DNA of 64,000 bases from Ornithinimicrobium cryptoxanthini (GTDB lineage: Bacteria; Actinomycetota; Actinomycetes; Actinomycetales; Dermatophilaceae). This document shows, one piece after another, positions 36,951 to 55,463 of this stretch (position 1 is its first letter; every line of letters begins with the position of its first letter). Below the pieces are notes generated by a model. It did not search any database. It was not told the DNA's origin and worked only from the letters and a program-made list of their open reading frames with translations. A program made the translations under genes and the position numbers. The stretch is taken from contig NZ_CP099490.1 in the NCBI RefSeq assembly GCF_023923205.1, positions 2,356,001-2,420,000 of the forward strand, read 5' to 3'.

Positions 36951-36983
36951 GCGGGGCGTATGCCGTCTGCTCGGGTCGGCAGG

Positions 36984-38156: not shown

Positions 38157-38175
38157 GTGTCCAGTATCTCCTTGC

Positions 38176-39501: not shown

Positions 39502-40760
39502 GGGTGGCTCACTTCCTGTGACGTCTGGCCGATCTGCAGTAATGTTGAACACCTGGCGAGTGCCTGCTGCCTGGCCTGCTGGTCTGCGGCCAACACGTCC
39601 TCAACAGACAGTGCAGCGGAATAGTTCCCCTGCGGGTCAGATTCTACGCCCGCAGCGCCCCCCGACCGCTGCCTGAAGTCGTCCACCACCTGCTGCACGG
39701 TGTCGACGATGTCCAGGAAGCCGATCGTCCCGTCGTGGAAGGCGTCGACGCACACCTCGTTGGCCGCGTTGTAGACGGCCGGCATGATGCCTCCCGCCTC
39801 ACCCACCTGGCGGGCGAGCCGCACGGCCGGGAACGCGTCGTCGTCGAGCGGATGGAACTCCCAGGCGCTGGCGGTGCTCCAGTCGCAGGGCTCGTCGACA
39901 TCGGCCAGCCGATCGGGCCAGGAGAGGCCCAGCGCGATCGGGACCAGCATCCGTGGCGGTCCGGCCTGGGCGATCGTCGAGCCGTCGTGGAACTCGACCA
40001 TCGAGTGGATCTGCTGCTGCGGGTGCACCACGACGTCGATGTCACTGAACGGTATGTCGAAGAGCAGGTGGGCCTCGATCACCTCCAGCCCCTTGTTGAC
40101 CAGGGTCGCGGAGTTGGTGGTCACAACCCGTCCCATCGCGAAGTTGGGGTGCTTCAGGGCCTGCTCGGGGGTCACCTCCCCCAGCTGCGTGCGGGTGCGC
40201 CCCCGGAACGGACCACCGCTGGCGGTGAGCACCAGCCGGCGCACCTCCTGGGCTCTGCCGGCCCGCAGGCACTGGGCGATAGCGCTGTGCTCGGAGTCGA
40301 CCGGCACGATCTGACCGTCGGCCGCCGCGGACGTGACCACCGAGCCACCCACGATGAGCGACTCCTTGTTGGCCAGCGCCAGGGTGCTCCCCGCTGCGAG
40401 CGCCGCCAGGGTCGGACGCAGGCCGATGCTCCCGGTGATGCCGTTGAGCACGATGTCGGCACCGTTGCCCGCCACCTCGCTGGCAGCCTCCGGACCGACG
40501 AGCAGCTCGGGGCGGCGTCCACCGGGGCCGGCCAAGTCCTCCAGCGCGGCACGCACCGCGTCCGCGGCATCCTCGCGGGCGACGGCCACCTGCTCCACGC
40601 CCAACGTGAACGCCTGCCGGGCGAGCTGCTGGGGGTCGGAGCCGGCAGCGCTGATCGCCCGGACCGTGAAGACCTCCGGGTTGGCCAGGATGATCTGCTC
40701 GGCCTGGGTGCCGATCGAACCGGTCGAGCCGAGCAGGGTCAGCGTGCGAGGTGGTGTCAC
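39498..40760 (-). CDS. dxr: 1-deoxy-D-xylulose 5-phosphate reductoisomerase
   Basis: A 420-residue NADPH enzyme catalysing the second MEP pathway step. The NADPH-binding LLGSTGSIGTQAEQII is at residues 8-24. LALANKESLIVGG and VPVDSEHSAIAQCL contain the metal- and substrate-binding acids, and ASGGPFRGR is the flexible loop. The C-terminal AYNAANEVCVDAF is diagnostic. It is preceded by, and overlaps by four bases, the 260-residue gene at 40757-41539, so the ESX-like trio may be co-transcribed with dxr-rseP-ispG. Confidence 0.96.
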   Translation of the reverse strand: MTPPRTLTLLGSTGSIGTQAEQIILANPEVFTVRAISAAGSDPQQLARQAFTLGVEQVAVAREDAADAVRAALEDLAGPGGRRPELLVGPEAASEVAGNGADIVLNGITGSIGLRPTLAALAAGSTLALANKESLIVGGSVVTSAAADGQIVPVDSEHSAIAQCLRAGRAQEVRRLVLTASGGPFRGRTRTQLGEVTPEQALKHPNFAMGRVVTTNSATLVNKGLEVIEAHLLFDIPFSDIDVVVHPQQQIHSMVEFHDGSTIAQAGPPRMLVPIALGLSWPDRLADVDEPCDWSTASAWEFHPLDDDAFPAVRLARQVGEAGGIMPAVYNAANEVCVDAFHDGTIGFLDIVDTVQQVVDDFRQRSGGAAGVESDPQGNYSAALSVEDVLAADQQARQQALARCSTLLQIGQTSQEVSHP

Positions 40761-41539
40761 TCCCCCATTGTCGCCGACTCCTCCGACAGTGCTGCCTCGG
40801 TCTGCTGCAGCAGCTCGGTGATCATCTCGCGCAGCGCAGTCGGGCGATAGGCCTGCGAGTCCTCGCTGACGAAGGTCCCGCCGGGCCCGAGCGCGACCAT
40901 CCGAGAACGCACACCGTCCGGGAGCAGTGCGGCTGCCTCCACCAGGACCGTGGGGTGGCCGAGGTCGGCGAGGAGCTCACTGACCGCTCCCTCTCCGGTG
41001 CCGAGCACGCGCACCGGCCCGGTCCCGGGCTCGGCGTCGGGCGGGACGATGAAGTCGGCCACGGCCCGCTCCCAGTGCTCGCGCTCGATCGTGAGCAGGC
41101 TGTGCATGCCGTGGTCGGTCACGTCCTCCAGCACCGCGATTCCCGGGTGGAGGTGCAGATATCTCGTGGCCACTGAGGGATCGGCAGCACCGCCCGGGTA
41201 GGGGCCGAGCACCCGTTGCAGCGCCAGCACACAGGGCGCGAGCGACCGCAGGCACAGCGTCAGTCCCAGGGGCTCGCTCGCGACCCACGCCGCCGCGTCC
41301 GCCAGCTCCGACGGGTAGGGGCGACTGCCCTCAGGAGGCTCCGGTGTCACCAGCCCGCGGGCCATCAGGGAGCGGGTGGCCACCGACAGCGCCAGGTCGC
41401 GCTGGTCGGTGTCGGCAGGGAGCTCGATGCGGGGCGGCACTACGCCGAGATCACCATGCGTCAGCACGAGCAGCTCCTCCTCCGTCACGGTCAGCGCCGG
41501 TCGCAACGGGATCGCGGCCCGGGACTCCGCTGCGGCCAT
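40757..41539 (-). CDS. EspG-like protein (possible ESX secretion chaperone)
   Basis: A 260-residue soluble protein without signal or membrane segment. It starts with a beta/alpha segment (LTVTEEELLVLTHGDLGVVPPRIEL) and a helical stretch with ATRSLMARGLVTPEP. WERAVADFIVPP follows, and a C-terminal helix contains REMITELLQQTEAAL. The order of these elements resembles EspG-type chaperones of actinobacterial ESX systems, where an 'RGLV' helix follows the first strand pair. This is a weak, pattern-level match. Support comes from context: its start overlaps by one base the stop of a WXG-containing protein, which overlaps a second WXG100-sized protein. Treat the assignment as tentative. Confidence 0.5.
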   Translation of the reverse strand: MAAAESRAAIPLRPALTVTEEELLVLTHGDLGVVPPRIELPADTDQRDLALSVATRSLMARGLVTPEPPEGSRPYPSELADAAAWVASEPLGLTLCLRSLAPCVLALQRVLGPYPGGAADPSVATRYLHLHPGIAVLEDVTDHGMHSLLTIEREHWERAVADFIVPPDAEPGTGPVRVLGTGEGAVSELLADLGHPTVLVEAAALLPDGVRSRMVALGPGGTFVSEDSQAYRPTALREMITELLQQTEAALSEESATMGE

Positions 41540-42804
41540 CAGAAGAGCTTCCGCAGCGCCGGGAGCACGATCGGCACCGTCAGCAGACTCGGCGGCGGGA
41601 CCACCGGCAGCCGCAGACCGGGACCGATCGGCACGTCGGGCAGCCGCAGCGGCACCTCGATGTCCGGCACGAACCGCCTCAGGTCATCGAGGTCGGGCAG
41701 GTCGGGCAGATCCGGCACCAGCCCGTCGCCGATTGGCACCAGCGGGCCAAGCGGCCCCCACGGGAGGCCAGGTCGTGGCCGGAGCATCTCGTGCGCCACC
41801 TTCTTGACCGTCTCCCGGTTCTGCCAGACATACCGACCCACTTTCGCGATCTGCTGGCGGTTGTCATAGATCGCGTTGCCACCCTTGACCAGGTAGTACG
41901 CGCCGACGGTGATGCCACCGGCGCCAGCGACGACAGGGTGGGGCATGATCATGGCCACACTCCCGGGGATCGCGAGTCCCGCGCTGACGCGGACCATGCC
42001 ACCGCGCCACCCGGTGTAGCCGCCGCCATCGACCAGGTCGGGCCACGCGTCGCTGACCACGACGATGGGCACCAGCAATCGCCCCAACGGTCCGGCCAGC
42101 AGAGCGATCGCCGGTGGCTTCATCACGGCCTTGAGCAGCCGGGCGACCTTGATGTCGAGCATCTGCCGCACGAAGGGCGAGACCTCGCGGGCCGCCTTGG
42201 CCGTGGTCAGCAGCAGCCGGGTGGCCACGACCACGAGGCTGCCGCCCCGCCAGACGGGGAGCACCTCGCGGCCAGCGGTGACGAGGTCAGAAAGGTCGTC
42301 CCAGGACTGCCCGACCCACGAGTCCTGGAGGAGGTCCTCGACCACCCGGCGGCCCCGCTCGAGGCCGCCTTCAGCCTCGTCGATCTCGTCCTGCGCCCGT
42401 TGGATCAGGCTCTCCAACACCATGACCCGGTCGCGGACCGCCTCGGCCTCAACCGGCTCGGTGATGGTCGTCAGCAGGTCGATCTGTCGCCTGCGCGCTG
42501 CCTGCGCCTCGTCGCGGGCACGTTGAGCGGCGCGGACGACCGTCTGCGCCTGGGCCCCCTGCTCGGCCAGGGTGTCCAGGGACCGGGCCAAGCCACCCAG
42601 TGGCCCGCACCGGGCCAGCACCGCGCCCTGCACCCGCCCACTCGCAGCCCGTTGGCCGAGCGCAGCGACCCCCTGCCAGCCCCCGGCCGTCGAGACGTCC
42701 GAGCGTGCCAACCGAGCAGCCAGCTCCTCCAGGTCGCGCTGCGCGACCACCAGTGACCGAGCCGCCACCCGCAGGTCGTCCGGACGCACCGCCAGCGCAG
42801 TCAC
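41539..42804 (-). CDS. Coiled-coil/membrane protein with WXG100-like N-terminus
   Basis: A 421-residue protein of unknown function. Residues 1-85 form a helical hairpin with GGWQGVAALGQRA at the turn, a WxG-type motif. Residues about 86-160 are charged and coiled-coil-like. Then come three hydrophobic stretches (about 187-203, 228-252, 268-300), the last Gly-rich with VAGAGGITVGAYYLV. The C-terminal 90 residues are Pro/Leu/Asp-rich with PDLPDLPDLDDL. The layout (WXG head, coil, Gly-rich hydrophobic part) recalls type VII secretion substrates. No nuclease, ADP-ribosyltransferase or other toxin domain is recognisable. Overlaps both neighbours (4 bases and 1 base). Confidence 0.6.
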   Translation of the reverse strand: MTALAVRPDDLRVAARSLVVAQRDLEELAARLARSDVSTAGGWQGVAALGQRAASGRVQGAVLARCGPLGGLARSLDTLAEQGAQAQTVVRAAQRARDEAQAARRRQIDLLTTITEPVEAEAVRDRVMVLESLIQRAQDEIDEAEGGLERGRRVVEDLLQDSWVGQSWDDLSDLVTAGREVLPVWRGGSLVVVATRLLLTTAKAAREVSPFVRQMLDIKVARLLKAVMKPPAIALLAGPLGRLLVPIVVVSDAWPDLVDGGGYTGWRGGMVRVSAGLAIPGSVAMIMPHPVVAGAGGITVGAYYLVKGGNAIYDNRQQIAKVGRYVWQNRETVKKVAHEMLRPRPGLPWGPLGPLVPIGDGLVPDLPDLPDLDDLRRFVPDIEVPLRLPDVPIGPGLRLPVVPPPSLLTVPIVLPALRKLF

Positions 42805-43106
42805 GGCAGCACCCTGGGCGCGAATCGTCCCCGGGTCTGCAGCTCCACCAGGCCATAGGCCAACCCGGCCGCCTCAGTCGCGCGGGACAGGGCAAGGCTC
42901 GCCTCGGCATACCCCTCGAGACCCCTGGCCCAGTGCCTGGCCGCCACGGTGGCGCTCGAGGCGAGCCCCGCCGAACCCCCTGCCCCCGCGGCCACCTGCA
43001 GTCCGCCGGCGATCCGGTCCGCACTCGCCCGCACCTGCTCGGCCACCGACCACAGCGTGCTCGCGGCGGCCTCGATCGCCTGCGCCTCGACCTCGATCCT
43101 GCGCAT
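42801..43106 (-). CDS. WXG100-sized helical protein
   Basis: A 101-residue protein predicted as two long helices (about 5-45 and 55-88) separated by a Gly/Ala/Ser-rich turn (GAGGSAGLAS). This is the size and shape of WXG100/ESAT-6-like proteins, although the Trp-x-Gly itself is absent at the turn. The ATG at 43106 follows GGGAGGGGCG, a strong ribosome-binding site. Its stop overlaps the next gene (ATGA). It is likely the first gene of an operon with the WXG-headed protein and the EspG-like protein and may form a heterodimer with the former. Confidence 0.6.
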   Translation of the reverse strand: MRRIEVEAQAIEAAASTLWSVAEQVRASADRIAGGLQVAAGAGGSAGLASSATVAARHWARGLEGYAEASLALSRATEAAGLAYGLVELQTRGRFAPRVLP

Positions 43107-43256
43107 CGCCCCTCCCTCTCCCTGGAGACCCGTGCCACTCCCCTCGCGGCTCCTCACACGTTAGGAGAATCCGCGACGGCGTGGGCGCGTTGTCCACAGC
43201 CCCTGATGAGACGGCCTCGAGCCGGAATGGGTCGTGCGACGGTCTAGCGACCGCGG

Positions 43257-44534
43257 TCAGCCACACTTCGGCAGCGGCGGAAGCTCCTGCGTCGTTGCCA
43301 GGGCACTCGGACCGGGATAGCCGGAGTTGAGATCCGCTGCGTCGTAGCGGACTTCTAACGCCGACGGATAGACCGTGAACTCGCCGCGTGGCCCATCTTG
43401 AGGAAGCTGCGTGTAACTCATCGACCTCAGGTCGAGGACATAGGTGAACTGGTCCTCATCGGTGCCTAGCCGGAAGGCCAGCAGCTCGTCGCTGAATGTG
43501 ACAGCGTCCAGCCAGGTGACGAGTTGACCATCAGGCGCGACGCCGTCCACCAGATGCATTGACTCACTCGTGTCTGCTCTCCAAAGCCAGAGCGACCACC
43601 TATTGTCTGCCCACGCCATCCCGGCGTCCGAGACGTGCAGTATGTGAGCAAATGAAGAGTCCCGGAACTCAGTCGGCAGCACCACAGGCTCAGAATCCGA
43701 CATTGGCACGACGGTCCACGTCACGACGTCGGACGCCGGAGTCATAGCGGGGAGGACGACCGAACCGCCAACACGTTCGACGGGCGAGAAGGGACCTCGG
43801 TCTATAACCGTGGATTCATCCGTCTCTACGTCATAGACCACGAGCGAACGCGAGAAAGGGTCCTCACTGGTTGGATCGAACTCAACCCAGGCAACTTGCC
43901 CGCCGTGAACTGCAACGTCAGGCAGAGGAGCGACACCAGCAGTGCCATCGGGATAGTCGCCCTCCGGGGAGTTGCCGATGAGCAGCGGCTCGCCGCCCAT
44001 CGTCGTGTCCCACACATAGATCGACCACGGGCTGAGGAACACCTCGTAACTCCAGGTCACGGAGTAGGCCAGGTATCTTCCGTCGTAGTCAGAGTTGAGG
44101 ATCTGAGCCTCAGGTTTGTCGGTGAACTCTTGAACTACTTCGACCTCACCTTCGGGATCAGTCCACTCCAGACGCGGCGCTGCTGTCGAGACGAAACTGG
44201 CAACCGAGCCGTCTTTCGCTGCAAGCGCGAGGTAGGTGGCTGGCTGCTTTGGTCCCGGGACTGGTCCGGGAAGCAGCGCCTCTTGCCAGGACTGGGGCAT
44301 ATCGACCAGGCACGCAGCAGTCGTCGCATCGACTGTTGAGGTTGCGGGAGGTGGAGCGACTGCTGACTGAGTCGGCGCCTCTCCGGGTGTCACGTCTGTC
44401 TCTTGCACAGCGGTTCGAGTGCTGCTGGACTCCGCCGCGGGCTCCAGGCTGGACGGCGGCGACGGTGAGCAACCAGCGGTGGGCACCAAGATGGCAGCGG
44501 CCAATGCCACCACCCTAGATCGCTTACCAGACAT
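43257..44534 (-). CDS. Lipoprotein with beta-propeller-like repeats, unknown function
   Basis: A 425-residue exported lipoprotein: signal RVVALAAAILVPTAGC with lipidated Cys22, a Ser/Thr/Pro/Ala linker to about 75, then about 350 residues rich in beta strands. These carry recurring patterns such as LAYSVTWSYEVFL, VAWVEFD, VVTWTVVPM, MAWADNRWSLWLW and LLAFRLG, which suggest a six- or seven-blade propeller of the kind found in TolB-like proteins. The ATG at 44534 is inside the end of the upstream frameshifted secreted-protein gene (11-base overlap); a GTG at 44546 is an alternative. Codon use looks less GC-biased than in the core genes. Confidence 0.7.
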   Translation of the reverse strand: MSGKRSRVVALAAAILVPTAGCSPSPPSSLEPAAESSSTRTAVQETDVTPGEAPTQSAVAPPPATSTVDATTAACLVDMPQSWQEALLPGPVPGPKQPATYLALAAKDGSVASFVSTAAPRLEWTDPEGEVEVVQEFTDKPEAQILNSDYDGRYLAYSVTWSYEVFLSPWSIYVWDTTMGGEPLLIGNSPEGDYPDGTAGVAPLPDVAVHGGQVAWVEFDPTSEDPFSRSLVVYDVETDESTVIDRGPFSPVERVGGSVVLPAMTPASDVVTWTVVPMSDSEPVVLPTEFRDSSFAHILHVSDAGMAWADNRWSLWLWRADTSESMHLVDGVAPDGQLVTWLDAVTFSDELLAFRLGTDEDQFTYVLDLRSMSYTQLPQDGPRGEFTVYPSALEVRYDAADLNSGYPGPSALATTQELPPLPKCG

Positions 44535-45172
44535 AGCCACGTGCACCCATCACAACCATCATGCTGTTGGACGAGTAGGTGCCGTACTTCGCCACATAAT
44601 TGAAGGAGACGCCGACCCCACCGGACGCGGGGTCCACGTAGTAGGTATTAGAACCGTAGTTGCTGTAGCCACGAAAGGCGACCATTGAAAGATTGTCGAA
44701 TTCGGGTACCCTGGCAGTCGATAACTAGACCCGGCTGTCATGTATAGGTTGCCCGCGAGGCCGTCTGGGCAGTTGTTCAGCACCCCCAAATCGCCACTTG
44801 AGCTCATGGATGCTATGTCCGGGTTGAGCGCGACAGATGCTTGGAAGTTCTCCCGAGCGATGCGAATCTGGCTCTCGTCGCCTGATTCAACCGCTTCCTT
44901 GACGGCCATGAGTGCCTGATAGTCGGCAGTTGCCTGCGCATCTGCCCGTCGAGCTTCCGCTTCTTGCTGGGGGGTGGCAGGGTCACCCAGCATCACAGGG
45001 GAGCGCTCCAGGGAGCCATATTCCACTTCGTGTCTGTCGCCGCAGCGCTGGTCAATGGCGAGGTCAGCAGTGCCACTGCCAAGAATGCGGTGATGGGCCG
45101 TGTGAATGATCGGCCGAACCGCCACGTCCTTTCACACCCGGAGTGGTTCGGTGTCAGATGTCGTGCCACCAT
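44524..45172 (-). pseudogene. Secreted protein gene broken by two frameshifts
   Basis: From an ATG at 45172 with AAGGGGG just upstream, one frame encodes a signal peptide (RPITAFLAVALLTSPLTSAAA) and stops near 44994. A second frame continues with MLGDPATPQQEAEARRADAQ and a helical stretch, then GVLNNCPDGLAGNLYMTAGSS. A third frame gives a coherent C-terminus, EFDNLSMVAFRGYSNYG ... VVMGARGYVW, ending in TAA at 44524. The first shift probably lies at the four-G run 44998-45001, the second between about 44700 and 44723. Whether these are real mutations or sequencing errors cannot be told. The gene overlaps the downstream lipoprotein gene as in the two other pairs nearby. Confidence 0.65.
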
Positions 45173-45295
45173 GATCCCCCTTGTATGACATCACCTTTGA
45201 TGCCGTGTGAGCGGGAGGGTAGTCCGCCTCCGTCAGTCTGTCAACTGTCAGCCGAAGCCGCCAGGACCTGTCTGAAGAGGCAACTCCAAGACCGT

Positions 45296-45301
45296 TAGGG
45301 T
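45296..45301 (+). promoter_or_regulatory. Putative leaderless -10 box for LOG copy 1
   Basis: TAGGGT lies six bases before the ATG at 45308, with no ribosome-binding site. The same arrangement (TAAGGT, seven bases) precedes the LOG remnant at 49992. Confidence 0.4.
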
Positions 45302-45307
45302 CGTGGC

Positions 45308-46483
45308 ATGACCGACCCCGTCGAGCGGGAGCACTCGGAGCACGAGGTGCGCTATCACCGTCCCTTCCGTGCCGCGCTGCCCGGCTTGATCCACGAGGTC
45401 AGGGACCTGGACACCCTCGAGGCGCTCCTCACGACGGGGGCCGCGCTGCGCGGATCACGCCTGAAGGCACTGGACCTGACCCACGTCGAGGAGCAGCTGC
45501 TGGCACGAGAAGACCTCGAGGGGCTGATCGTGCTGGGCGGCGCGGTCCCGCCCGCGCTAGAGCAGCACCTGCGACGCTGTGGGGCGATCATTTTCCCAGC
45601 GGCGCCACATGCCCCCGTGCGGCCCTACCGTGGGTCGCTCTACACCGCGGACGAACTCTACGACGGCCTCGCTGAGCACGGTTATGAGCAGACGACCGAC
45701 GCGAAGGCCTATCGGTGGCTCCAGGATGCCACCGTGCGGCACGACGCCTACGTCACGGTCCTGCGCGCGATCCATGACGACGCCATGTCCGATGCCCTGG
45801 TCGACGTGGTTTCTGAGCGCAAAGTGGTCGGGGTGATGGGCGGGCACGCGCTGGCCCGCGGGTCGGCCGGGTTCCGCGACGCGGCACGCCTGGGGTTCAC
45901 GCTGGCAGAGGCGGGGTATGTCGTGGCCACAGGCGGTGGGCCCGGCGCGATGGAGGCGGCGAACCTGGGGGCCTGGTGCCGCAGTGCCGACCTCCTGGAA
46001 CCAGCCTTGGAGCAGCTGGTCACGGTGCCGCACTTCGATCAGGGCGTCGGCGCCTGGGCCCAGGTGGCCCTCGACGTGGTCCACGCCGCCTACGGCACCG
46101 ACCGGCCGCCGTCACCCCTACGCAGCCTCGGCATCCCGACCTGGCACTACGGTCACGAGCCACCCAACGTCTTCGGTGACCTGATCGCGAAGTTCTTCAG
46201 CAACGCTCTGCGCGAGGATCTGCTCCTGCACCACAGCACCTCCGGACTCGTGGTGCTGCCCGGCGCCGCCGGCACCGTGCAGGAGATCTTCCAGATGGCG
46301 ACCCGCCTCTACTACGAGGTGGACCACCGGGTCCCTCCCCTGGTGCTGGTCGACCGGAGGCACTGGACCGAGCACCTACCGGTCTTCCCCCTGCTGGAGG
46401 CGTTGGGCCGCGACCGAGCGATGGCTGCTCAGCTCCACCTCGTCGACACCGTCGAGGAAGCCGCATCACTGCTGATCGGGTGA
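45308..46483 (+). CDS. LOG-family nucleotide-binding protein, copy 1 (full length)
   Basis: A 391-residue Rossmann-fold protein of the LOG (LONELY GUY)/TIGR00730-related superfamily. GGGPGAMEAANLGA near residue 206 and LPGAAGTVQEIFQMA near 316 are the two LOG motifs with the catalytic Arg/Glu region. VVGVMGGHALARGSAGFRDAA is the first Rossmann strand-loop. The larger size and N-terminal GSRLKALDLTHVEEQLL domain place it with the long bacterial LOG relatives rather than the 180-residue cytokinin-activating enzymes. LOG enzymes release bases from nucleoside monophosphates; activity here is unproven. Copy 2 at 47526 and a remnant at 49992 are duplicates. Confidence 0.87.
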   Translation: MTDPVEREHSEHEVRYHRPFRAALPGLIHEVRDLDTLEALLTTGAALRGSRLKALDLTHVEEQLLAREDLEGLIVLGGAVPPALEQHLRRCGAIIFPAAPHAPVRPYRGSLYTADELYDGLAEHGYEQTTDAKAYRWLQDATVRHDAYVTVLRAIHDDAMSDALVDVVSERKVVGVMGGHALARGSAGFRDAARLGFTLAEAGYVVATGGGPGAMEAANLGAWCRSADLLEPALEQLVTVPHFDQGVGAWAQVALDVVHAAYGTDRPPSPLRSLGIPTWHYGHEPPNVFGDLIAKFFSNALREDLLLHHSTSGLVVLPGAAGTVQEIFQMATRLYYEVDHRVPPLVLVDRRHWTEHLPVFPLLEALGRDRAMAAQLHLVDTVEEAASLLIG

Positions 46484-46572
46484 TCCGGAAGCGCGCAGTC
46501 ACCACTCGATATCTTCGGGTTGTGGCCTCGGACAGGCGGGGTCATCGATGTAGGGCTGACCCTGCTGCGCCG
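46340..46572. repeat. 233-bp duplicated tract, copy A
   Basis: Identical to 48573-48805 except for two substitutions; the first 194 bp are perfectly identical. It spans the 3' end of LOG copy 1 and the 3' end of the convergent lipoprotein gene. The rest of the two LOG genes is clearly more diverged. Confidence 0.9.
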
Positions 46573-47047
46573 GCAGGTAGGCGTCCCACGCCTGGTCTGT
46601 GTGAAACTGGGCGATGTAGGTCTCTCGAGACGGTGGCGGCATGGGGTTGTGGCCATGCTCGACCAGACACTCATACGACTCCACCTGCAGGTCATAGAAC
46701 TTGCTGAGCTCCTCATCGCTCGCTGGTGCCGCCGACGGAAGCGGACCGAACTCCTGGTCGCACTCCTGACTGGCTTGCCGAAATTCGTCGTATTGGGCGC
46801 CATGAGCAGTCTTGACCGATCCATTCGGCATCAACTCGGAGGGAAATCCGGCTTCCGTCAGGCAGTCAGCAGTGAACTCCAGGTACTCGCGTCGATACTC
46901 GGCCTCAGCAGCCCTGTCCACCGGCGCACCCTCTGTCTCGCTATCAGCCGTGCTGCACCCACTGGCCACGAGAGTGCCGAGGAGCACCACAGCAAGACCC
47001 AGCGGCGCACTACGGAGCCGTGCAACTGCCGAAGGTGCCCAGCGCAT
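46499..47047 (-). CDS. Cys-rich lipoprotein, paralogue of the gene at 49284
   Basis: A 182-residue lipoprotein with signal GLAVVLLGTLVASGC (lipidated Cys31). The mature part has four further cysteines in the pattern ADCLTEAGF, SQECDQEFG, YECLVEHG and DPACPRPQ, the same order as in the lipoprotein at 49284-49946, so the two are paralogues. The segment SRETYIAQFHTDQAWDAYLPA is typical of an uncharacterised actinobacterial lipoprotein group. The ATG at 47047 is chosen for its GGAG six bases upstream; other in-frame ATGs lie upstream. It overlaps the preceding secreted-protein gene by 38 bases and converges with LOG copy 1 (15 bases between). Confidence 0.7.
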   Translation of the reverse strand: MRWAPSAVARLRSAPLGLAVVLLGTLVASGCSTADSETEGAPVDRAAEAEYRREYLEFTADCLTEAGFPSELMPNGSVKTAHGAQYDEFRQASQECDQEFGPLPSAAPASDEELSKFYDLQVESYECLVEHGHNPMPPPSRETYIAQFHTDQAWDAYLPAQQGQPYIDDPACPRPQPEDIEW

Positions 47048-47435
47048 CCAAGTCTCCGTATGCAAGGACATACCACCAGCCACCCGCCATCAAGCCAGGG
47101 TCCGTTGCCCCAGCGAAAAAGGTGCCAGTGCTGTACGTCAGGGTGGAGCCAGATCCTGGCGGCGTAACCTTCACTGTGCCTTGACGGGCGCGCCACGTCA
47201 CAGCAGGACGAGTGTCGGCCCCAAACGCACAGTCCGCAGGCCACCTGTAGCCGCCATCGTCTTCTGAGGCAGGGACCACTGCCCCCTGAGTCCCCGTCAT
47301 CTTAAGCGCCGCGCTGGCGACAGAAGGCACGGACCCACTGACAACTTCGCCCGAAGAAGTTACCGCACCAGCCAAAACTAAACTAATGGCTAAGGACAGA
47401 ACCAAGCCAGCTCTGTTTCCAGACCTTCGGCCCAT
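47010..47435 (-). CDS. Small secreted protein with two cysteines
   Basis: A 141-residue protein with a signal peptide (LVLSLAISLVLAGAVTSS) and a probable beta-rich mature part with two cysteines, one in WPADCAFG (69) and one four residues from the end (138), suited to a disulfide. Segments such as AVTWRARQGTVKVTPPGSG and GGWWYVLAYGD look like antiparallel strands. No family recognised. The lipoprotein gene at 46499 starts inside its 3' end, the same secreted-then-lipoprotein order seen at 45172/44534 and 48920/49284. Possible exported effector; no functional evidence. Confidence 0.65.
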   Translation of the reverse strand: MGRRSGNRAGLVLSLAISLVLAGAVTSSGEVVSGSVPSVASAALKMTGTQGAVVPASEDDGGYRWPADCAFGADTRPAVTWRARQGTVKVTPPGSGSTLTYSTGTFFAGATDPGLMAGGWWYVLAYGDLDALGTFGSCTAP

Positions 47436-47525
47436 GTCACCCCCCGTGTCAGACTGCTGGAACCACTCGTTGCAGCAGGATGCCCCTCACCGTCTCACAC
47501 GCCACAGGCGCATGCAATAGCGGAG

Positions 47526-48716
47526 GTGCGGACTGGCGCGCCGTCGAGTGGCCCCGGTCATCAGCACCACCCGGAAGGTCTGAAGAAACGCGAAACCGAG
47601 CGCCACGTCCGTCCAAACGGGTCTGAATCCCCCGATCCTTCTGCACCACGAGTGGCGCTGCTCACGGCGGGCGCCGCACTGGGCGGTTCGCGCCTGAAGG
47701 GACTGGCCCTGACCCAGGTCGAGGAGCAGCTGCTGGCCCGCGATGACCTGGAGGGACTCATCGTGCTGGGCGGCACGGTCTCGCCCGCGCTGGACCGGCA
47801 CCTTCGCCACCGCGGGGCCATCATCTTCCCGGCGGCGCCCGATGCCCCCGTGCGTCCCTACCGCGGGTCGCTCTACACGGCGGACGAACTCTATGACGGC
47901 CTGGCCGAGCACGGTTATGAGCAGACGACCGATGCGCGGGCCTATCGCTGGCTCCAGGACGCCACCGTCCGGCACGACGCCTATGTCACGATCCTACGGG
48001 CGATCCACGACGACGCCATGTCCGATGCCCTGGTCGACACGGTCTCCGAGCGCAAGGTCGTCGGGGTGATGGGCGGGCACGCGCTGGCCCGCGGGTCGGC
48101 CGGGTTCCGCGACGCGGCACGCTTGGGCTTCGGCTTCGCCGAGGCGGGGTATGTCGTGGCCACAGGAGGTGGGCCCGGCGCCATGGAGGCGGCAAACCTC
48201 GGAGCCTGGTGCCGCAGCGCCGACCTGCTGGAACCGGCACTGGAACAGCTGGCCACGGTGCCGCACTTCGACCAGGGGCTCGGCGCGTGGGCGCAGGTGG
48301 CCCTCGACGTGGTTCACGCCGCCCAAGGCACCGACCAAGCGCCGTCACCGCTGCGCAGTCTGGGCATCCCGACCCGGCACTACGGCCACGAGCCGCCCAA
48401 CGTCTTCGGTGACCTCATCGCGAAGTTCTTCAGCAACGCCCTGCGTGAGGACCTGCTGCTACACCACAGCACCTCCGGGGTCGTGGTGCTGCCCGGTGCC
48501 GCCGGGACTGTCCAGGAGATCTTCCAGATGGCGACCCGCCTCTACTACGAGGTGGACTACCGCGTGCCACCGCTGGTGCTGGTCGACCGGAGGCACTGGA
48601 CCGAGCACCTACCGGTCTTCCCCCTGCTGGAGGCGTTGGGCCGCGACCGAGCGATGGCTGCTCAGCTCCACCTCGTCGACACCGTCGAGGAAGCCGCATC
48701 ACTGCTGATCGGGTGA
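47526..48716 (+). CDS. LOG-family protein, copy 2, altered N-terminus
   Basis: About 90% alike in protein to copy 1 from ALLTAGAAL onward, with both LOG motifs (GGGPGAMEAANLGA, PGAAGTVQE) intact. The first 35 or so residues of copy 1 have no counterpart. The frame open from the ATG at 47526 encodes an unrelated Arg/Pro-rich stretch, and a GTG near 47650 may be the real start. The gene may thus be a 5'-truncated duplicate that still encodes the Rossmann core. Its last 144 bases and the sequence after the stop are nearly identical to copy 1. Expression is uncertain because the copy 1 promoter region is not conserved. Confidence 0.65.
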   Translation: MRTGAPSSGPGHQHHPEGLKKRETERHVRPNGSESPDPSAPRVALLTAGAALGGSRLKGLALTQVEEQLLARDDLEGLIVLGGTVSPALDRHLRHRGAIIFPAAPDAPVRPYRGSLYTADELYDGLAEHGYEQTTDARAYRWLQDATVRHDAYVTILRAIHDDAMSDALVDTVSERKVVGVMGGHALARGSAGFRDAARLGFGFAEAGYVVATGGGPGAMEAANLGAWCRSADLLEPALEQLATVPHFDQGLGAWAQVALDVVHAAQGTDQAPSPLRSLGIPTRHYGHEPPNVFGDLIAKFFSNALREDLLLHHSTSGVVVLPGAAGTVQEIFQMATRLYYEVDYRVPPLVLVDRRHWTEHLPVFPLLEALGRDRAMAAQLHLVDTVEEAASLLIG

Positions 48717-48805
48717 TCCGGAAGCGCGCAGTCACCACTCGATATCTTCGGGTTGTGGCCTCGGACCGGCGGGGTCATCGATGTAGGGCTGACCCTCCTG
48801 CGCCG
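48573..48805. repeat. 233-bp duplicated tract, copy B
   Basis: Matches 46340-46572 with two substitutions. The similarity stops abruptly at 48805, inside what was the lipoprotein gene, marking the edge of the duplication. Confidence 0.9.
48732..48805 (-). pseudogene. 3' fragment of the Cys-rich lipoprotein gene
   Basis: Read on the minus strand it encodes the last 24 residues of the 46499 lipoprotein (QEGQPYIDDPAGPRPQPED and the rest), including the stop. A conserved Cys is changed to Gly. There is no upstream part, so it is a by-product of the LOG duplication. Confidence 0.8.
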
Positions 48806-48919
48806 CAGAGGATCTCGCAGACTTTTCACCGCTTGGGCCAGTCAACGCGAGCTCTTGTGTTCTTGAGACCGGGGGGGGGTATTCTACTATTCACCAATCT
48901 CGAACACTTGGGGGTAGAA

Positions 48920-49279
48920 ATGCTTACGTCGCAGCAACGTCGCGCGCCGCTAGGCCGCCTAGGAGGAGGTTTAGCAGCATTAGCGCTTGTGATTGTTTCA
49001 GCAGCACCCGCCTCGGGTGCCAGTTTCGTCCGGTTCGGCGAAGATTGCTACGTGCCGATCAGGATCACTGCGGGAACTATCGGAACATTGAAGTTTGACG
49101 CATGGAAGCACACTGGCAAGCCGTTCGTTCGCGGAACCCACAGTTGGAAGTACTACTCGTGGGTCGATTACCCGAATCCCGACCGCACTGTCAACATGCT
49201 CTGGACGACTGTCTCAGAAATCCAGGCTAATACCAGTCGGGCCTCATGGGTCAGCCGTCCACGCCTCATGTGCGGGTGA
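48920..49279 (+). CDS. Small secreted protein with N- and C-terminal cysteines
   Basis: A 119-residue protein with a clear signal peptide (LAALALVIVSAAPASGA, cleavage near residue 33). The mature part of about 85 residues is rich in Trp, Tyr and basic residues (FDAWKHTGKPFVRGTHSWKYYSW). Cys43 and Cys118, the penultimate residue, could form a disulfide. GGGGG lies five bases before the ATG. The lipoprotein gene at 49284 starts five bases after its stop, forming the third secreted-protein/lipoprotein pair. No known family recognised; a bacteriocin-like role is only a hypothesis. A G10 run at 48871-48880 lies in its upstream region. Confidence 0.65.
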   Translation: MLTSQQRRAPLGRLGGGLAALALVIVSAAPASGASFVRFGEDCYVPIRITAGTIGTLKFDAWKHTGKPFVRGTHSWKYYSWVDYPNPDRTVNMLWTTVSEIQANTSRASWVSRPRLMCG

Positions 49280-49283
49280 GCGG

Positions 49284-49946
49284 GTGAGCGGGCGACACCT
49301 GGGAGCTTCGCTGAGTGCCGTTGAAGTCGCATCCAGCATCTTGCTGAGCGCGTGCTCTGGGAATCCAGACATCGGGCAAACATCACGCACAACACACGGG
49401 AGCCATCCCGGCCCGATTGTCTGGGACGATCATCTCGCTGGTCTTGCCGAGTCGCTCGGGATCGCGGATCCGCCGGAGGTGCCCGTTGTCCGAGAGGTGA
49501 GCCCGTCCGAGTCTCAAGCGGCCGTGGATGGTTGCCTTGCGGAAGAAGGCTGGATGCAGGGCAATGATGGCTGGGTGACTGTGCCTGAGGATCAACTCGA
49601 GGCAAGCAATCTCAGCATCTACATCTGCACTGCTCAGTATCCGATCCGTCCCGAGTTCCTGTCTCCACTCACCGACCGTCAGTTCGCGCGACTGTATGAC
49701 CACTGGATCACCGAGACGTTGCCCTGCGCGCAACGCAACGGCGTGTCGGTGGACTTGGACGCTGTTCCTACGAAGGAGACTTTCCTTCAGGATCCGTATT
49801 CATGGACACTATTCTCACTTTTGATGCCGCAACTCGTGAGCATGGAAGAAGCGGGTGCGATCGCGTCCGTCGACTCCTTCCTGACTGACGTGTGCCCTGG
49901 GCCAGATGAGTGGGAACTGCGGGACTTGGTCCCGCCTGAAGATTGA
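49284..49946 (+). CDS. Cys-rich lipoprotein, paralogue of the gene at 46499
   Basis: About 220 residues from a GTG at 49284. The signal is short and imperfect (an acidic residue inside the hydrophobic part) but ends in a lipobox, ILLSAC (Cys24). Four cysteines follow in VDGCLAEEGW, IYICTAQYP, LPCAQRNG and DVCPGPDE, the same order as in the 46499 lipoprotein. FARLYDHWITETLPC aligns with FYDLQVESYEC there. Start choice rests on the lipobox and on the short distance from the upstream secreted-protein stop; the frame remains open upstream. Function unknown. Confidence 0.6.
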   Translation: MSGRHLGASLSAVEVASSILLSACSGNPDIGQTSRTTHGSHPGPIVWDDHLAGLAESLGIADPPEVPVVREVSPSESQAAVDGCLAEEGWMQGNDGWVTVPEDQLEASNLSIYICTAQYPIRPEFLSPLTDRQFARLYDHWITETLPCAQRNGVSVDLDAVPTKETFLQDPYSWTLFSLLMPQLVSMEEAGAIASVDSFLTDVCPGPDEWELRDLVPPED

Positions 49947-49991
49947 GGCTCTTCGCATCCCACTCGTTGTCGGCGCCTTAAGGTTCGTGAG

Positions 49992-50082
49992 ATGACTGCC
50001 CCCCGTCGAGCGGGAGCGCCCGGAGCAGGACGCGACCGTGCGGCACGGCGGAGCCTATGTCACGATCCTGTTGACCGGGTGA
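49992..50082 (+). pseudogene. Remnant of a third LOG-family gene
   Basis: The upstream box (TAAGGT), the ATG and the first codons resemble the start of LOG copy 1. After a one-base shift the frame reads VERERPEQ, then joins directly to DATVRHGGAYVTIL, which in the full gene lies about 130 residues further on, and soon stops. It is a 5' fragment with a large internal deletion. Confidence 0.65.
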
Positions 50083-50112
50083 CCTGCGCCCTGTGGCGAA
50101 GGCCCACGCAAC

Positions 50113-51279
50113 TCAGACCGTGGCAGCGAGCTGGCCGCAGGCACCGTCGATCTCCGAGCCGCGGGTGTCCCGCACGGTGGTGGGGATCCCGTGGGCCAGG
50201 AGTCGCTCGACGAACTGCTGCTCGACACCGGGGCGGGAGGCGGTCCACTTCGAGCCCGGCGTCGGGTTCAACGGGATCGGGTTGACGTGCACCCAGCCGC
50301 GACCGCGGGCGTTGAGCTTCTCGCCGAGCAGGTCAGCCCGCCAGGCGTGGTCGTTGATGTCCTTGATCAGGGCGTACTCGATGCTGACGCGGCGCCCGGT
50401 CGTCTCGTAGTAGCGGTAGGCGGCGTCGAGGGCCTCGTCGACCTTCCACCGGGTGTTGATCGGCACCAGCTCGTCGCGCAGCTCGTCATCGGGGGCGTGC
50501 AGGGACAGTGCGAGGGTGACTGGGATGCCCTCCCTGCCGAGCTTGTCGATGGCCGGGACCAGGCCGACGGTCGACATGGTGACGCCACGGGCGGACATGC
50601 CGAGCCCCCCGGGCGAAGGGTCGACGAGGCGACGGATCGCGTCGACGGCCTTGCGGTAGTTGGCCAGCGCCTCCCCCATGCCCATGAAGACGACGTTGCT
50701 GACGCGCAGCGCGTCCTCGGTCGAGCCGGCCCCGTCGGTGCCGCCCGCGAGGTCGCCGTGGCGAAGGTAACGGGCGGCCGCCACGACCTGCTCCACAATC
50801 TCGGCCGTCGACAGGTTGCGGGTCAGGCCCGCCTGCCCGGTCGCGCAGAAGGGGCAGTTCATGCCACAGCCCGCCTGGCTGGAGATGCACATGGTCACCC
50901 GGCCCGGATAGCGCATCAGCACCGACTCGACCATCGCGCCGTCGTGCAGCCGGTGGACCTGCTTGACCGTCGCACCGTCATCGGTCGACAGAGTGCGGAT
51001 CGGCGTCAGCAGCTGCGGCAGCAGGGTCCCGACCAGCTCGTCACGCCCCTCTCTGGGCAGATCGGTCATCTGCTCAGGGTCGGTGACCAACCGCTCAAAG
51101 TAGTGGCGCGACACCTGGTCGGCGCGGAACGGCTTGTGGCCCAGCTCGGTCAGCCAGTCGCGGCGACCGGCCATGTCCAGATCAGCCAGATGGGTTGGCG
51201 CCTTGCCCCGTCGTGGCGCGCTGAAGGTCAGCGTCCCAGGGGCGGGGCGGGTGCTGGGGGTCGGCAGTTCGGTGGTCAT
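50113..51279 (-). CDS. rlmN: 23S rRNA (adenine2503-C2)-methyltransferase
   Basis: A 388-residue radical SAM enzyme that methylates A2503 of 23S rRNA (and A37 of some tRNAs). The cluster motif is [14 protein letters not shown] (CxxxCxxC) near residue 137. [16 protein letters not shown] and [18 protein letters not shown] segments follow. The C-terminal [14 protein letters not shown] contains the Cys that resolves the methylated intermediate. GGAGGC precedes the ATG. Its position downstream of cdsA-frr-pyrH is common in actinobacteria; here an MFS transporter gene is inserted between, 13 bases upstream. Confidence 0.96.
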
Positions 51280-51292
51280 CGCCTCCAGTGTC

Positions 51293-52738
51293 TCAGGACC
51301 GCCGCCGGAAACCCACCTGCCCGAGGTCCGCCACCTGTTCGGAGCGCCAGGCCAGTGGGATCAGCAGCAGTGCGAGCATTCCCAGGGCGAGGTAGACCCC
51401 CGCCGCGAACACACCGCGCTCGGTCGCTGCCGAGAGCACCCAGGCGAGCGCTGAGGCGGTCACGGTCGCGAGCAGGGCGGTGCCGACGACCTCGGCCATC
51501 ACCAGTGCCTGGGCCGCGACGTGGGTGCCGATGCCGTCGGGTGCGGTGGGCTCGTCCAGCACCCGGTTGAGCGTGTCGACATAGGCGAGCCCCATCCCGG
51601 CACCGGTCAACGCCCAACCCACCAGGTGCAGTTCCCAGGCGCCTGTCGCGGAGGGCAGGAGTGTCGCCGGCAGGAGGGATGCTGCCGACAGCAGGGACAG
51701 GGCCAGGGCAGCAAAGCCCGCAGCCAGCAGCCCGGCAGCACCCACGACCCGCCGGAGGTATGCCGTGTGGTCCCGTGCCGGCCACCGGCCACAGACCATG
51801 CCGAGGACGGACCACGCGGCACCGCCGAGCCCCAGCAGGAGGGCCAGGTCGCCGGCGGTGCGCCCTATCAGGTCGTGTGCGGTGATCGCCACCACGGCGT
51901 GGCCCCCGAAATAGACGGCACACAGCAGACCCATCAGCAGGATCGTCGCGGGTCTTCCCGGTCGGGCCACGAGCGTGCCGGCGGGCAGGATCCGAGCGGC
52001 CGCTGCCAGCACGAGTGCGCCTCCCGCGATGCCCACGACCGTGCCGGGGACCGAGGTGCCGACCAGTGACAGGAGGGTCACGCCGGTGGCCAGCCCGACT
52101 GCCGGCCCCAGCCCCAACGGATCCCGTCCGTCCTGCTGGGCCCGGTCCAGCTGCCGCAGTCGCACGATCACCACGGCCCGCGCGATGAGGAAGAGCGGCA
52201 GATAGGCGACCAGCGACCACCGCCAGCCGATCGCCGAGGACGCCCACCCGGCATACACCGGCCCGACAAGGGAGGCGACCAGCCAGACCATGGCATAGCC
52301 CGCCAGCACCAGCCGGCGCCAGGCTGCGGGCAGCGCCGTGGCCAGCGCGGAGAGCGAGACCGTCATCAGCGCACCGGCCGCCAGCGCAGCCAGCACCCGG
52401 CCAGACACGAAGAGGGCAAAGGTGGGCGCGAACGCGCTCAGCACTCCCCCGACGACGACCAGCGGCGTGAGCCACGTCAGCATCTGCGAGGCACTCCACC
52501 GGGACAACAGCGCCGCCCCCAGGGGCATGGTCAGGAACATCGCCGCCTGGGTCGCGGCCACCAGCAGGCCATAACCGTCCTGCGCGTGCAGGTCCTGCGC
52601 CATCAGCGGCGTGATGGTGGTGGTCAGATAGGACTGGCAGGCCGCGACCAGCTCGACGAGGAGGAGAGCGGCGGCCAGGACGGCGGCAGAACGAGCCTCC
52701 GTGCGAGGCTCGGCGTGGGCGACAGATCGCGTGGTCAT
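51293..52738 (-). CDS. MFS transporter (drug-efflux-like)
   Basis: A 481-residue membrane protein with 12-14 predicted spans, beginning [30 protein letters not shown]. The first loop has [17 protein letters not shown] and motif-like [21 protein letters not shown]. The pattern fits the drug:H+ antiporter part of the major facilitator superfamily. No regulator gene is adjacent, but an operator-like palindrome covers the promoter. The ATG at 52738 seems to start a leaderless message. rlmN starts 13 bases after its stop, so it may be co-transcribed. Substrate unknown. Confidence 0.85.
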
Positions 52739-52744
52739 TCTATG

Positions 52745-52759
52745 ATGCTAGCACTCTAG
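52745..52759 (-). promoter_or_regulatory. Extended -10 promoter with CTAG-N4-CTAG operator-like palindrome
   Basis: On the minus strand CTAGAGTGCTAGCAT contains an extended -10 (TGCTAGCAT), six bases before the MFS ATG, overlapping the inverted repeat CTAG-AGTG-CTAG (52748-52759). Such a site suggests control by a TetR- or MarR-type repressor encoded elsewhere. Confidence 0.45.
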
Positions 52760-52793
52760 TGAGCCGTCAGACCACCTGTTTGCAGGAGTTCGC

Positions 52794-53669
52794 TCAGGCG
52801 GGGACCAGCACGCTGAGCAGGACCCAGGCCACCGGCGCCGTGATCAGCAGGGAGTCCAGCCGGTCCATGACACCCCCGTGACCGGGCAGCACGTTGCCCA
52901 TGTCCTTGATCCCGAGGTCCCGCTTGATGGTCGACTCAGACAGGTCCCCGACCGTGGCGAAGAACGCGATCGGCACGCCGAGGAGGGCGCCAGCCCACCA
53001 ATCACCGCCCAGGAGCAGCGGCACACTGATCGCACCAGCGACGACAGAGGTCAGCACCGAGCCGGCAAAGCCTTCCCACGACTTCTTCGGGCTGATCGAG
53101 GGGGCCATCGGGTGCTTGCCGAACAGCACCCCCACGGCATACCCACCGATGTCGCTCATCGTGGTGAGCAGGGCGAAGACGATGATCCGCTGGCCACCGT
53201 CGGGTTCGGCCAGCATCAGCGCGGCAAAGCCGGCCAGACCGACATAGGTGACGATGAAGACCCCGCCGGCCACGTCGCGAACCGCACCGGTGGGACCGTC
53301 CAGCGCACGCCATACGAGCACCGTCAGGGCCACCAGGCCATAGCCGAGCAGATAGGCCGAGCTGCCCCCCACATACGCCAGTGGCACCAGGGCGAGGGCG
53401 CCGATGAGGACCGGCACCAGTGGTGCGTTGATGCGTCCGGTCCGGAGGGCGTTGACCAGCTCGAGGGATCCGATCACGGCGACGATGGTGACCAGGGCGA
53501 CGAACGCCGGTCTATAGAGCAGGGCCGTGGCAATGACGAGGGCCCCTAGGGCGACCCCCACTGCGATCGCCGCGGGGAGGTTGCGGCCGGCCCGAGAGGG
53601 TGCCTTGGCGGTCGCCGGATCCGCCGACCGCTGCTGTGCCTTGAAGGCGCGCCGCGACGATGCCTCCAT
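52794..53669 (-). CDS. cdsA: Phosphatidate cytidylyltransferase
   Basis: A 291-residue membrane enzyme making CDP-diacylglycerol for phospholipid synthesis. About eight hydrophobic segments are visible, the cytosolic N-terminus is basic, and the C-terminal signature DLSESTIKRDLGIKDMGN ... GHGGVMDRLDSL is the diagnostic CdsA motif with metal-binding acids. PKKSWEGFAGS is a further conserved block. GGAGGAGGG precedes the ATG. It follows frr by 27 bases in the pyrH-frr-cdsA run. Confidence 0.95.
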   Translation of the reverse strand: MEASSRRAFKAQQRSADPATAKAPSRAGRNLPAAIAVGVALGALVIATALLYRPAFVALVTIVAVIGSLELVNALRTGRINAPLVPVLIGALALVPLAYVGGSSAYLLGYGLVALTVLVWRALDGPTGAVRDVAGGVFIVTYVGLAGFAALMLAEPDGGQRIIVFALLTTMSDIGGYAVGVLFGKHPMAPSISPKKSWEGFAGSVLTSVVAGAISVPLLLGGDWWAGALLGVPIAFFATVGDLSESTIKRDLGIKDMGNVLPGHGGVMDRLDSLLITAPVAWVLLSVLVPA

Positions 53670-53696
53670 CGTCCCTCCTCCAGGGATCAGGGTCCC

Positions 53697-54263
53697 TCAG
53701 ACCTCCAGCAGCTCGGCTTCCTTGAGTTTGAGCACCTCGTCGATCTGGTCCACGAACTTCCTGGTCAGGGCCTCGATCTCCTTCTCGGAGCGGGCACCCT
53801 CGTCCTCACCGATCTCGCCGTCCTTGACGGCCTTGGAGATGGTGTCCATGGTGGCGCGCCGCACGTTGCGCACCGACACCTTGGCGTCCTCACCCTTGGT
53901 GCGCGCCAGCTTGATGTATTCCTTGCGGCGCTCCTCGGTCAGCTGCGGCATGACGATGCGGATCGCGTGACCGTCGTTGCTCGGGTTGAGGCCCAGGTCG
54001 CCCTCGCGCAGCACCTTCTCGATGCCGGACATGGCGCCCTTGTCGAAGGGGGTGATCAGCACGGTGCGGGCGTCCTGGACGGTGAAGGAGGCCAGCTGCT
54101 GCAACGGGGTGGGCGCACCGTAGTAGTCGACCATCAGCTTGTTGAACATCGCCGGGTGGGCGCGGCCGGTGCGGATGGCGGCCATGTCGTCCCGGACGAC
54201 CTCGACGGCCTTGCCCATCTTTTCCTCGGCCTCCAGCTGGGCCAGTTCGATCGTCTCCGACAT
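53697..54263 (-). CDS. frr: Ribosome recycling factor
   Basis: A 188-residue three-helix-bundle protein that, with EF-G, splits post-termination ribosomes. Conserved blocks are KMGKAVEVVRDDMAAIRTGRAHP, VDYYGAPTPLQQLA, NPSNDGHAIRIVMPQLTEERRKEY and the C-terminal DQIDEVLKLKEAELLEV. AAGGAG lies upstream of the ATG. It lies 69 bases after pyrH and is transcribed with it. Confidence 0.97.
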   Translation of the reverse strand: MSETIELAQLEAEEKMGKAVEVVRDDMAAIRTGRAHPAMFNKLMVDYYGAPTPLQQLASFTVQDARTVLITPFDKGAMSGIEKVLREGDLGLNPSNDGHAIRIVMPQLTEERRKEYIKLARTKGEDAKVSVRNVRRATMDTISKAVKDGEIGEDEGARSEKEIEALTRKFVDQIDEVLKLKEAELLEV

Positions 54264-54332
54264 GCCTCGTGCTCCTTGTCGACGGTGCGCACCGATCGCG
54301 GCGCGCAGGCTGTCTGCTCGTGGTCGCTGCTC

Positions 54333-55130: not shown

Positions 55131-55258
55131 GATCTCCTACCGGTTCCTGCGGCGGTCAGCGGTCGCTCGATCCTGCCACACGCAGGCGTCCGCGGCACAC
55201 CTGGCTGCACGGGGCCCTGCTGAGCGCGCCCCACCGTCCCCTCGCGTCACACGTCCTG

Positions 55259-55342
55259 GTGCAGCTGGACGCATCCTTCACGCCCGGGTCGCGTCACGCG
55301 TGAGGGATCCATGCAGCTGGACGCATCCTTCACGCCCGGGTC
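55259..55342. repeat. Dispersed hairpin repeat with a duplicated arm
   Basis: Arm 1 (55259-55281) pairs with arm 2 (55300-55322, 18 of 23 positions complementary). A 30-bp unit at 55261-55290 is then repeated exactly at 55313-55342. The same arms flank the insertion sequence at 15.4-17.0 kb. The rest of the 333-bp pyrH-tsf gap (55131-55258 and 55343-55405) shows no ORF or motif that I can name. Confidence 0.75.
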
Positions 55343-55405
55343 CGCCGTCAGCCTCTGGTCGCTCGACAGCGAGCACGTGCGGCTCAGCACCGTCAGAGAC
55401 GCCGA

Positions 55406-55436: not shown

Positions 55437-55463
55437 ACGGCATACGACCTGATGGAGCCTGGC

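Follow-up and report, generated by a model that had tools for sequence, protein, structure and literature searches.

What are the genes for small exported proteins and lipoproteins that lie as close neighbours at positions 43257 to 49946 of a 64,000-nucleotide (nt) stretch of the Ornithinimicrobium cryptoxanthini genome? This genome is a single contig (NZ_CP099490.1) of 3,771,308 bases, and the stretch analyzed here, hereafter the window, covers its positions 2356001-2420000. A sequence-only reading of this DNA had proposed three pairs, each with a secreted-protein gene followed by a lipoprotein gene. Pairs 2 and 3 proved intact (Table 1), whereas pair 1 is a lipoprotein gene with a decayed partner of another family. 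Across related genomes, such pairs form families with a recurrent gene order, are swapped against a constant neighbourhood with co-segregating partner types and can lose the secreted gene with the lipoprotein kept. We see about even chances that they encode a polymorphic bacteriocin-like protein (hereafter sec) together with its cognate immunity lipoprotein (LIP), in the manner of NisI and its ATP-binding cassette (ABC) transporter. The sec-LIP architecture is well supported; antibacterial function, toxicity, binding, immunity and an envelope target are what it would suggest, and the role of the pairs, be it that of effector and immunity protein or that of ligand and receptor, is one that we infer.

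Table 1. Features of the island in window coordinates.
Feature	Position	Strand	Description	Size	Basis
p1lip	43257..44534	-	intact lipoprotein, separate unnamed family	425 aa	single open frame with lipobox
p1sec remnant	44524..45172	-	exported-protein gene in three reading frames	649 nt
LOG1	45308..46483	+	full-length LOG/lysine-decarboxylase-like core gene adjoining rlmN		Pfam Lysine_decarbox; 24/24 genus genomes
p2lip	46499..47047	-	four-Cys lipoprotein, LIP family clan 1	182 aa	leave-one-out HMM E=3e-40; tree
p2sec	47010..47435	-	small exported two-Cys protein, secA family	141 aa	leave-one-out HMM E=3.6e-13
displaced LOG 3' flank	47562..47624	+	sequence directly 3' of the LOG stop in G010, displaced past pair 2		87.5% over 64 nt to L179 8717-8780
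LOG2	47654..48716	+	second LOG copy without the first 37 LOG1 codons		45421-46576 vs 47654-48808 at 90.4%
p2lip-like remnant	48732..48875	-	p2lip-like 3' gene end following LOG2		DNA repeat to 48808; protein match to 48875
p3sec	48920..49279	+	small exported two-Cys protein, occupying the secB slot	119 aa	secB kinship not proven
p3lip	49284..49946	+	four-Cys lipoprotein, LIP family clan 2	220 aa	leave-one-out HMM E=2.8e-17; tree
LOG3 remnant	49976..50070	+	LOG start region fused to an internal piece		two short repeats

Protein families of the paired genes

p2lip and p3lip belong to one unnamed four-cysteine lipoprotein family, LIP. It was assembled by an iterated profile search over 40 sampled loci, four other loci of the same genome and the window, which yielded 76 open reading frames (ORFs), fragments included, and both window members were recovered by a hidden Markov model (HMM) built without either of them. 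Each possesses a lipobox cysteine plus four cysteines in identical order, as the sequence-only reading had noticed. The beginning of p3lip (window 49284-49340) is unusual, with a GTG start and a weak signal peptide bearing an acidic residue in its hydrophobic stretch, and its real start or export may differ. Within the genus, LIP matches (120, fragments included) were found in 20 of 24 genomes, with up to 17 in a single genome.

The reading frame of p2sec overlaps that of p2lip by 38 nt. Its product belongs to an unnamed secreted family of about 85 amino acids (aa) with two cysteines, secA, the model used for its test having been built without p2sec. This family is represented by 21 matches in 12 of the 24 genus genomes. 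Among 296 genomes drawn from the class, secA is present in at least three and LIP in at least 43, both counts being lower bounds for which only part of the candidates was scored. A second type of exported protein, secB, with 10 members, is encoded upstream of other LIPs. In leave-one-out tests, seven of these 10 recover one another at E=1.8e-11 to 3.8e-5, and the candidates from outside the genus scored E=0.0023 (L121), E=0.018 (L118) and E=86 (L117); the B labels that these three carry in the LIP tree rest on their pattern and on visual judgement. When the secA and secB profiles were compared, they appeared related over 81 columns (probability 84, E=7.6e-6 for a single target), and control profile comparisons with LIP gave nothing.

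p3sec precedes p3lip by 4 nt. Its membership in secB was considered and rejected, as strong E-values were obtained only from models containing p3sec itself and leave-one-out did not detect it. Later kinship tests gave P=0.04, then E=0.61 and P=0.02. It resembles secB in size, two-cysteine layout and slot, and p3lip sits in the clan that holds most secB partners. In their mature parts, both p2sec and p3sec contain two cysteines, the last of which is located at most four residues from the C terminus, in agreement with the two-cysteine layout noticed in the sequence-only reading.

Secreted ORFs evolving without purifying selection had been named as an outcome that would speak against the proposed pairs. 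This outcome was not seen: in the sec pairs compared, the nonsynonymous rate (dN) is lower than the synonymous rate (dS), with synonymous sites near saturation, p3sec standing outside this comparison because it has no relative. For p2sec and its homologue in L042, dN is 0.62 and dS 1.63, while the sec proteins of L044 and L050 differ with a dN of 0.11 at saturated synonymous sites.

AlphaFold2 confidently predicts for the p2sec domain a compact fold of seven strands (predicted local distance difference test score, pLDDT, 92.4) and for p2lip four helices with two short strands (pLDDT 92.7). A PDB sequence search returned no convincing match, the best being the lectin PLL2 at E=2.3e-5 with no single stretch passing, and the LIP profile (A1) had a sole hit among PDB chains at E=2.4. 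We recognized no description of a sec-LIP pair family in the open-licence literature searched.

Coupling of the secreted-protein and lipoprotein genes

An ORF with a signal peptide and two cysteines lies directly upstream of 26 of the 81 LIPs, the corresponding figure for control gene starts from these loci being one of 293. This pattern was defined after examples had been seen, and both window pairs as well as the near-duplicate loci L062/L063 are counted among the 26. Adding hits found by HMM only, sec precedes 31 of the 81 LIPs. The pattern is also present upstream of six of 13 LIPs outside the genus, which supports beyond this genus the coupled order and fast divergence of exported-protein/lipoprotein cassettes proposed from the window.

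Seen from the other side, 19 of the 21 secA genes in the 24 genus genomes are followed within 400 nt by a LIP on their own strand; of the remaining two, one has its LIP 160 nt ahead of it and the other is 1.9 kb away from a LIP. Since the secA model was trained on LIP neighbours, this count shows that none turned up far from a LIP and gives no unbiased rate. LIP genes and fragments also occur in clusters, several in L075 and L053 (G004) and two each in L067 (G018) and L065 (G010). Some of these clusters contain no sec at all, and they resemble immunity-gene arrays.

Cassette exchange against a constant transporter

In relatives, the full gene order is sec, LIP, a peptidoglycan-binding adaptor (PG_binding_1 domain), an ABC ATPase nearest to LolD, FtsE and MacB models, and an FtsX permease. 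The three transporter genes stand beside LIP in 11 of 36 sampled loci from other genus genomes, two near-copies being among the 11, and in all four loci of a genome from another family (G024). Over 28 comparisons of eight such operons, the median identities were 27.5 percent for sec and 31.5 percent for LIP, against 62.5 percent for the adaptor, 67.5 percent for the permease and 80 percent for the ATPase.

The most informative operons are those of L044, L062 and L077. Their adaptor, ATPase and permease are 87-96% identical, while their sec proteins share 24-33% and their LIPs 23-32% identity, and L077 carries a secB gene where L044 and L062 carry secA. At the DNA level, they are 90.8-92.5% similar over 2.9 kb, a match whose start ranges from 17 nt ahead of the adaptor domain to 52 nt into it and that stops with the permease. 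No further DNA match connects L044 with L062 or L077; between L062 and L077, a 59-nt piece and 675 nt surrounding a second LIP further upstream (78%) match as well. L044 and L050 show no swap, their flanks and one cassette being alignable (sec 75.5%, LIP 69%). In six operons, the guanine-cytosine (GC) content of the sec-LIP part is 0.52-0.71, all but one value being at or below 0.664, compared with 0.70-0.75 for the transporter part.

An alternative, which we consider unlikely, is that the pairs form a sensing or detoxification module. LIP would then act as extracytoplasmic binding subunit in an efflux complex of MacB type, to which sec, as a soluble ligand-catcher or signal, would deliver a toxic compound, and swapping would track changing chemical threats instead of toxin and immunity. 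The nature of the adaptor and of the FtsX permease is consistent with such a module, as is the position of LIP: in a search anchored on the adaptor, LIP was found less than 1 kb upstream in 14 of 22 loci among the matches listed (one a fragment), with a recognized sec before it in nine of the 22. In this set, two loci are cut off too near to judge, near-copies occur twice (L219/L220 and L225/L226), and at least six loci (L219, L222, L224, L227, L234 and L235) appear to repeat contigs already sampled. Among the matches listed, it comprises Ornithinimicrobium, Serinicoccus, Nostocoides, Jiangella, Oerskovia, Georgenia, Tessaracoccus and Propionibacteriaceae. The LIP found in Georgenia and Tessaracoccus does not precede the adaptor. 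In distant actinomycetes, LIP even lies beside transporter genes where no sec was recognized. However, orphan sec-LIP pairs such as those of the window would have no pump nearby, and the joint change of sec and LIP next to a near-identical transporter suits partner recognition better than recognition of a ligand alone.

Two loci of the adaptor-anchored set have features of their own. In Jiangella aurantiaca (L234, 3001-4002, minus strand), three tandem weak secA hits are divergent from one LIP-adaptor-ATPase-permease operon. L224 (QEUR01000028.1), which has this operon type, is labelled "Acidobacteria bacterium", probably a wrong label of a metagenome-assembled genome.

Do the two partners change together? 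A quickly built LIP tree of 76 rows, obtained from the 81 LIPs by dropping two L063 near-copies and rows below 100 aa, contains two clans with 95% support in the Shimodaira-Hasegawa-like approximate likelihood ratio test (SH-aLRT), which follow the sec type. One clan, including p2lip, bears 16 A labels and one B label, and the other, including p3lip, three A and nine B labels, 47 rows being unlabelled. Sec type changes four times on the tree, compared with 8.6 times in shuffles, and zero to one of 500 shuffles were as low. The association of sec type with LIP clan is significant by Fisher's test (p=1.9e-4, and p=4.7e-4 when p3lip and the three weak B labels are set aside), a test that treats related tree rows as independent.

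This matching of types could also be expected if sec carried a signal from cell to cell and the lipoprotein received it at the surface, allelic types setting compatibility groups among kin. The strong diversity and the predicted location of both products at the surface or outside the cell would agree with it. Nevertheless, we regard kin signalling as improbable: a lipoprotein without a membrane-spanning partner offers no clear route for a signal, LIPs far outnumber secA genes (120 against 21 matches in the genus genomes), and the pairs are linked to an ABC transporter.

A putative bacteriocin-like protein and its immunity lipoprotein

The reading as a bacteriocin-like protein with cognate immunity lipoprotein can be formulated as follows. 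Each intact pair would be an exchangeable cassette. Its first gene would encode a protein exported by the Sec pathway, the mature part of which, as modelled for p2sec, would be a compact beta-sandwich of about 85 aa, probably closed by a disulfide between the first and last cysteine. The second gene would encode a four-cysteine lipoprotein anchored outside the membrane. Most likely, sec would inhibit related bacteria at the cell envelope, and LIP would bind it to shield the producer. In many other genomes, where the cassette precedes the adaptor-ATPase-FtsX permease operon, LIP may pass sec to this ABC machine, as with NisI and NisFEG. The window is then best read as containing two orphan cassettes and one decayed.

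Several lines of evidence weigh against this reading. Sec proteins and lipoproteins gave no convincing family in Pfam, NCBIfam or PADLOC, fold searches with the p2sec and p2lip models found no confident or distinctive match in the PDB, and p3sec was not provably kin to other sec proteins in profile tests. No transporter genes were found near the window pairs within 36001-56000, the rest of the genome not having been searched in this way; in the seven stretches of the same genome that hold its eight LIPs, there is no adaptor or permease, and two have an ATPase match alone. Lipoprotein homologues occurring mostly without the secreted gene had been expected to count against the pairs, and this is in part what was seen, as 50 of the 81 LIPs have no recognized sec. 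Similarly, the distant loci L122-L125 and L130-L132 combine LIP with transporter genes, with a convincing sec in none of the seven, so that the main role of LIP may be with the transporter. The surplus of LIPs, like the presence of LIP with a transporter but no sec, fits non-producers that keep immunity, and fits such a primary transporter role equally well.

The closest functional parallel is lantibiotic self-immunity, in which, in the cited portion of the source, the lipoprotein LanI and the ABC transporter LanFEG cooperate (NisI/NisFEG) and LanI proteins have a high specificity for their own lantibiotic (PMC4828448). In both cases, a surface lipoprotein and an ABC transporter accompany a secreted-protein gene, here in many relatives but not in the window, and the product is antibacterial for lantibiotics and putatively so for sec. 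The differences are substantial: sec is a domain of about 85 aa with a Sec signal and two cysteines rather than a precursor of lanthipeptide size, no solved structure matches LIP by sequence, and the transporter of sec-LIP operons further comprises an adaptor that binds peptidoglycan and an FtsX permease.

Likewise, two further genes of the lactococcin 972 (Lcn972) cluster could, as stated in the cited part of the source, encode an ABC transporter with a part in immunity (PMC4055356). The likeness lies in a small exported protein followed by possible immunity ABC transporter genes, with actinobacterial examples in L137 and L138. However, neither p2sec, p3sec nor any of 20 secA members matched the Lcn972 family (PF09683), profiles of secA and secB showed no relation to three Lcn972-type proteins (P=0.07 and 0.47), and none of three Lcn972 loci examined contained LIP or the adaptor. 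L137 and L138 encode a large membrane protein, which in L137 matches a bacteriocin-associated model, where full sec-LIP operons encode adaptor, ATPase and FtsX permease. The sec-LIP pairs could be assigned neither to the NisI/NisFEG nor to the Lcn972 family.

In polymorphic toxin systems, variable parts spread via cassette recombination, according to the cited section of the source (PMC3482391). An exchange of a variable gene pair against a constant part was also found here, in three operons and in the co-segregation of the partners. Unlike in those systems, there is no long carrier with a trafficking domain, p2sec and p3sec consisting of a signal peptide and one small domain (modelled for p2sec), and it is the whole small protein and its lipoprotein that are exchanged against the transporter. 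The latter is similar to MacAB- and LolCDE-like (FtsX) transporters in its adaptor, its ATPase and its FtsX permease, and differs from them by the PG_binding_1 domain of the adaptor and by its link to a variable secreted-protein/lipoprotein pair.

Collectively, these features could describe an unnamed class of polymorphic, Sec-exported and disulfide-stapled bacteriocins spread over several actinomycete families, a proposal that we rate a little short of an even chance. Such proteins would combine a beta-sandwich of about 85 aa with their own four-cysteine immunity lipoprotein, be swapped as a single cassette of low GC content placed before a constant MacB-like transporter with a peptidoglycan anchor, and be stockpiled as orphans at core genes, for example at the LOG-rlmN junction. 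Actinobacteria are known mainly for small-molecule antibiotics. If the proposal is true, they would also be a rich source of antibacterial proteins that are encoded by genes and come with matching immunity genes, and the genes for small exported proteins and lipoproteins that family models leave unnamed would acquire a meaning. The constant transporter provides a search handle for further pairs, and thanks to the sharp boundary of the cassette, partner specificity can be tested directly.

The decayed pair 1

The region 45172-44524 had been taken for a secreted-protein gene. It is a broken gene, as its signal peptide (frame 0), body (frame 2, ORF 45125-44559) and tail (frame 1) occupy different frames and its length is not a multiple of three. 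The body has no relative among 37 other genomes. p1lip lies outside the 76 ORFs of the LIP family and gave no match in Pfam or NCBIfam; its kin are a 34% identical paralogue in the same genome and, in one other of the 38 genomes searched (G010), a homologue with 31% identity. Upstream of this homologue, a remnant matches the p1sec tail (31 residues, E=2e-9), while the locus of the paralogue (L142) has no clear sec remnant. In the window and in G010 alike, the lipoprotein has been retained and the secreted partner has decayed. Although two cases are few, this outcome would be expected if the lipoprotein guards against something from outside, and p1lip may be an immunity-type gene that has lost its partner.

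Origin of the island

LOG and rlmN are both present in all 24 genus genomes, within about 2.5 kb of one another, and the LIP and sec models found nothing in 16 sampled LOG-rlmN loci. The GC content of the sec and lipoprotein genes of the island is 0.575-0.625, compared with 0.70 for LOG and rlmN. The island is a low-GC insertion beside the LOG gene, next to rlmN.

Its structure is marked by repeats of LOG. The sequence-only reading had noted neither these repeats nor the p2lip-like remnant, nor the transporter found with many such pairs in other genomes. Pair 2 parts LOG1 from the 64-nt sequence that directly trails LOG in G010. The open frame of LOG2 extends up to 47526 with unrelated sequence, and at the other end the LOG2 repeat passes the LOG stop, taking along 78 bases of the p2lip end. 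The p2lip-like remnant found there has a 59% protein match over p2lip residues 137-182. In LOG3, 49976-50030 corresponds to 45292-45345 (80%) and 50026-50070 to 45722-45763 (82%). The simplest reading is that the island arose by repeated recombination via LOG homology.

An insertion of low GC content at a core gene might also be expected of phage-derived or surface-exclusion lipoproteins accompanied by an unrelated small exported gene. This origin appears very improbable: p2lip had no relative in phage, plasmid and viral collections, the viral scan being one that detects close relatives only, and many relatives of the pairs are linked to an ABC operon.

The rlmN match is split in two in G002 (L173), G004 and G021 (L172), perhaps owing to assembly errors, and is partial in G009. 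Between ispC and the island (window 40757-43106, minus strand) lie two WXG100-like genes, at 41539 (Pfam E=1e-5) and 42801 (E=0.19), both below the curated cut-off, and an unrecognized neighbour at 40757. One or more of these three genes recur in 15 of the 16 sampled LOG loci of the genus.

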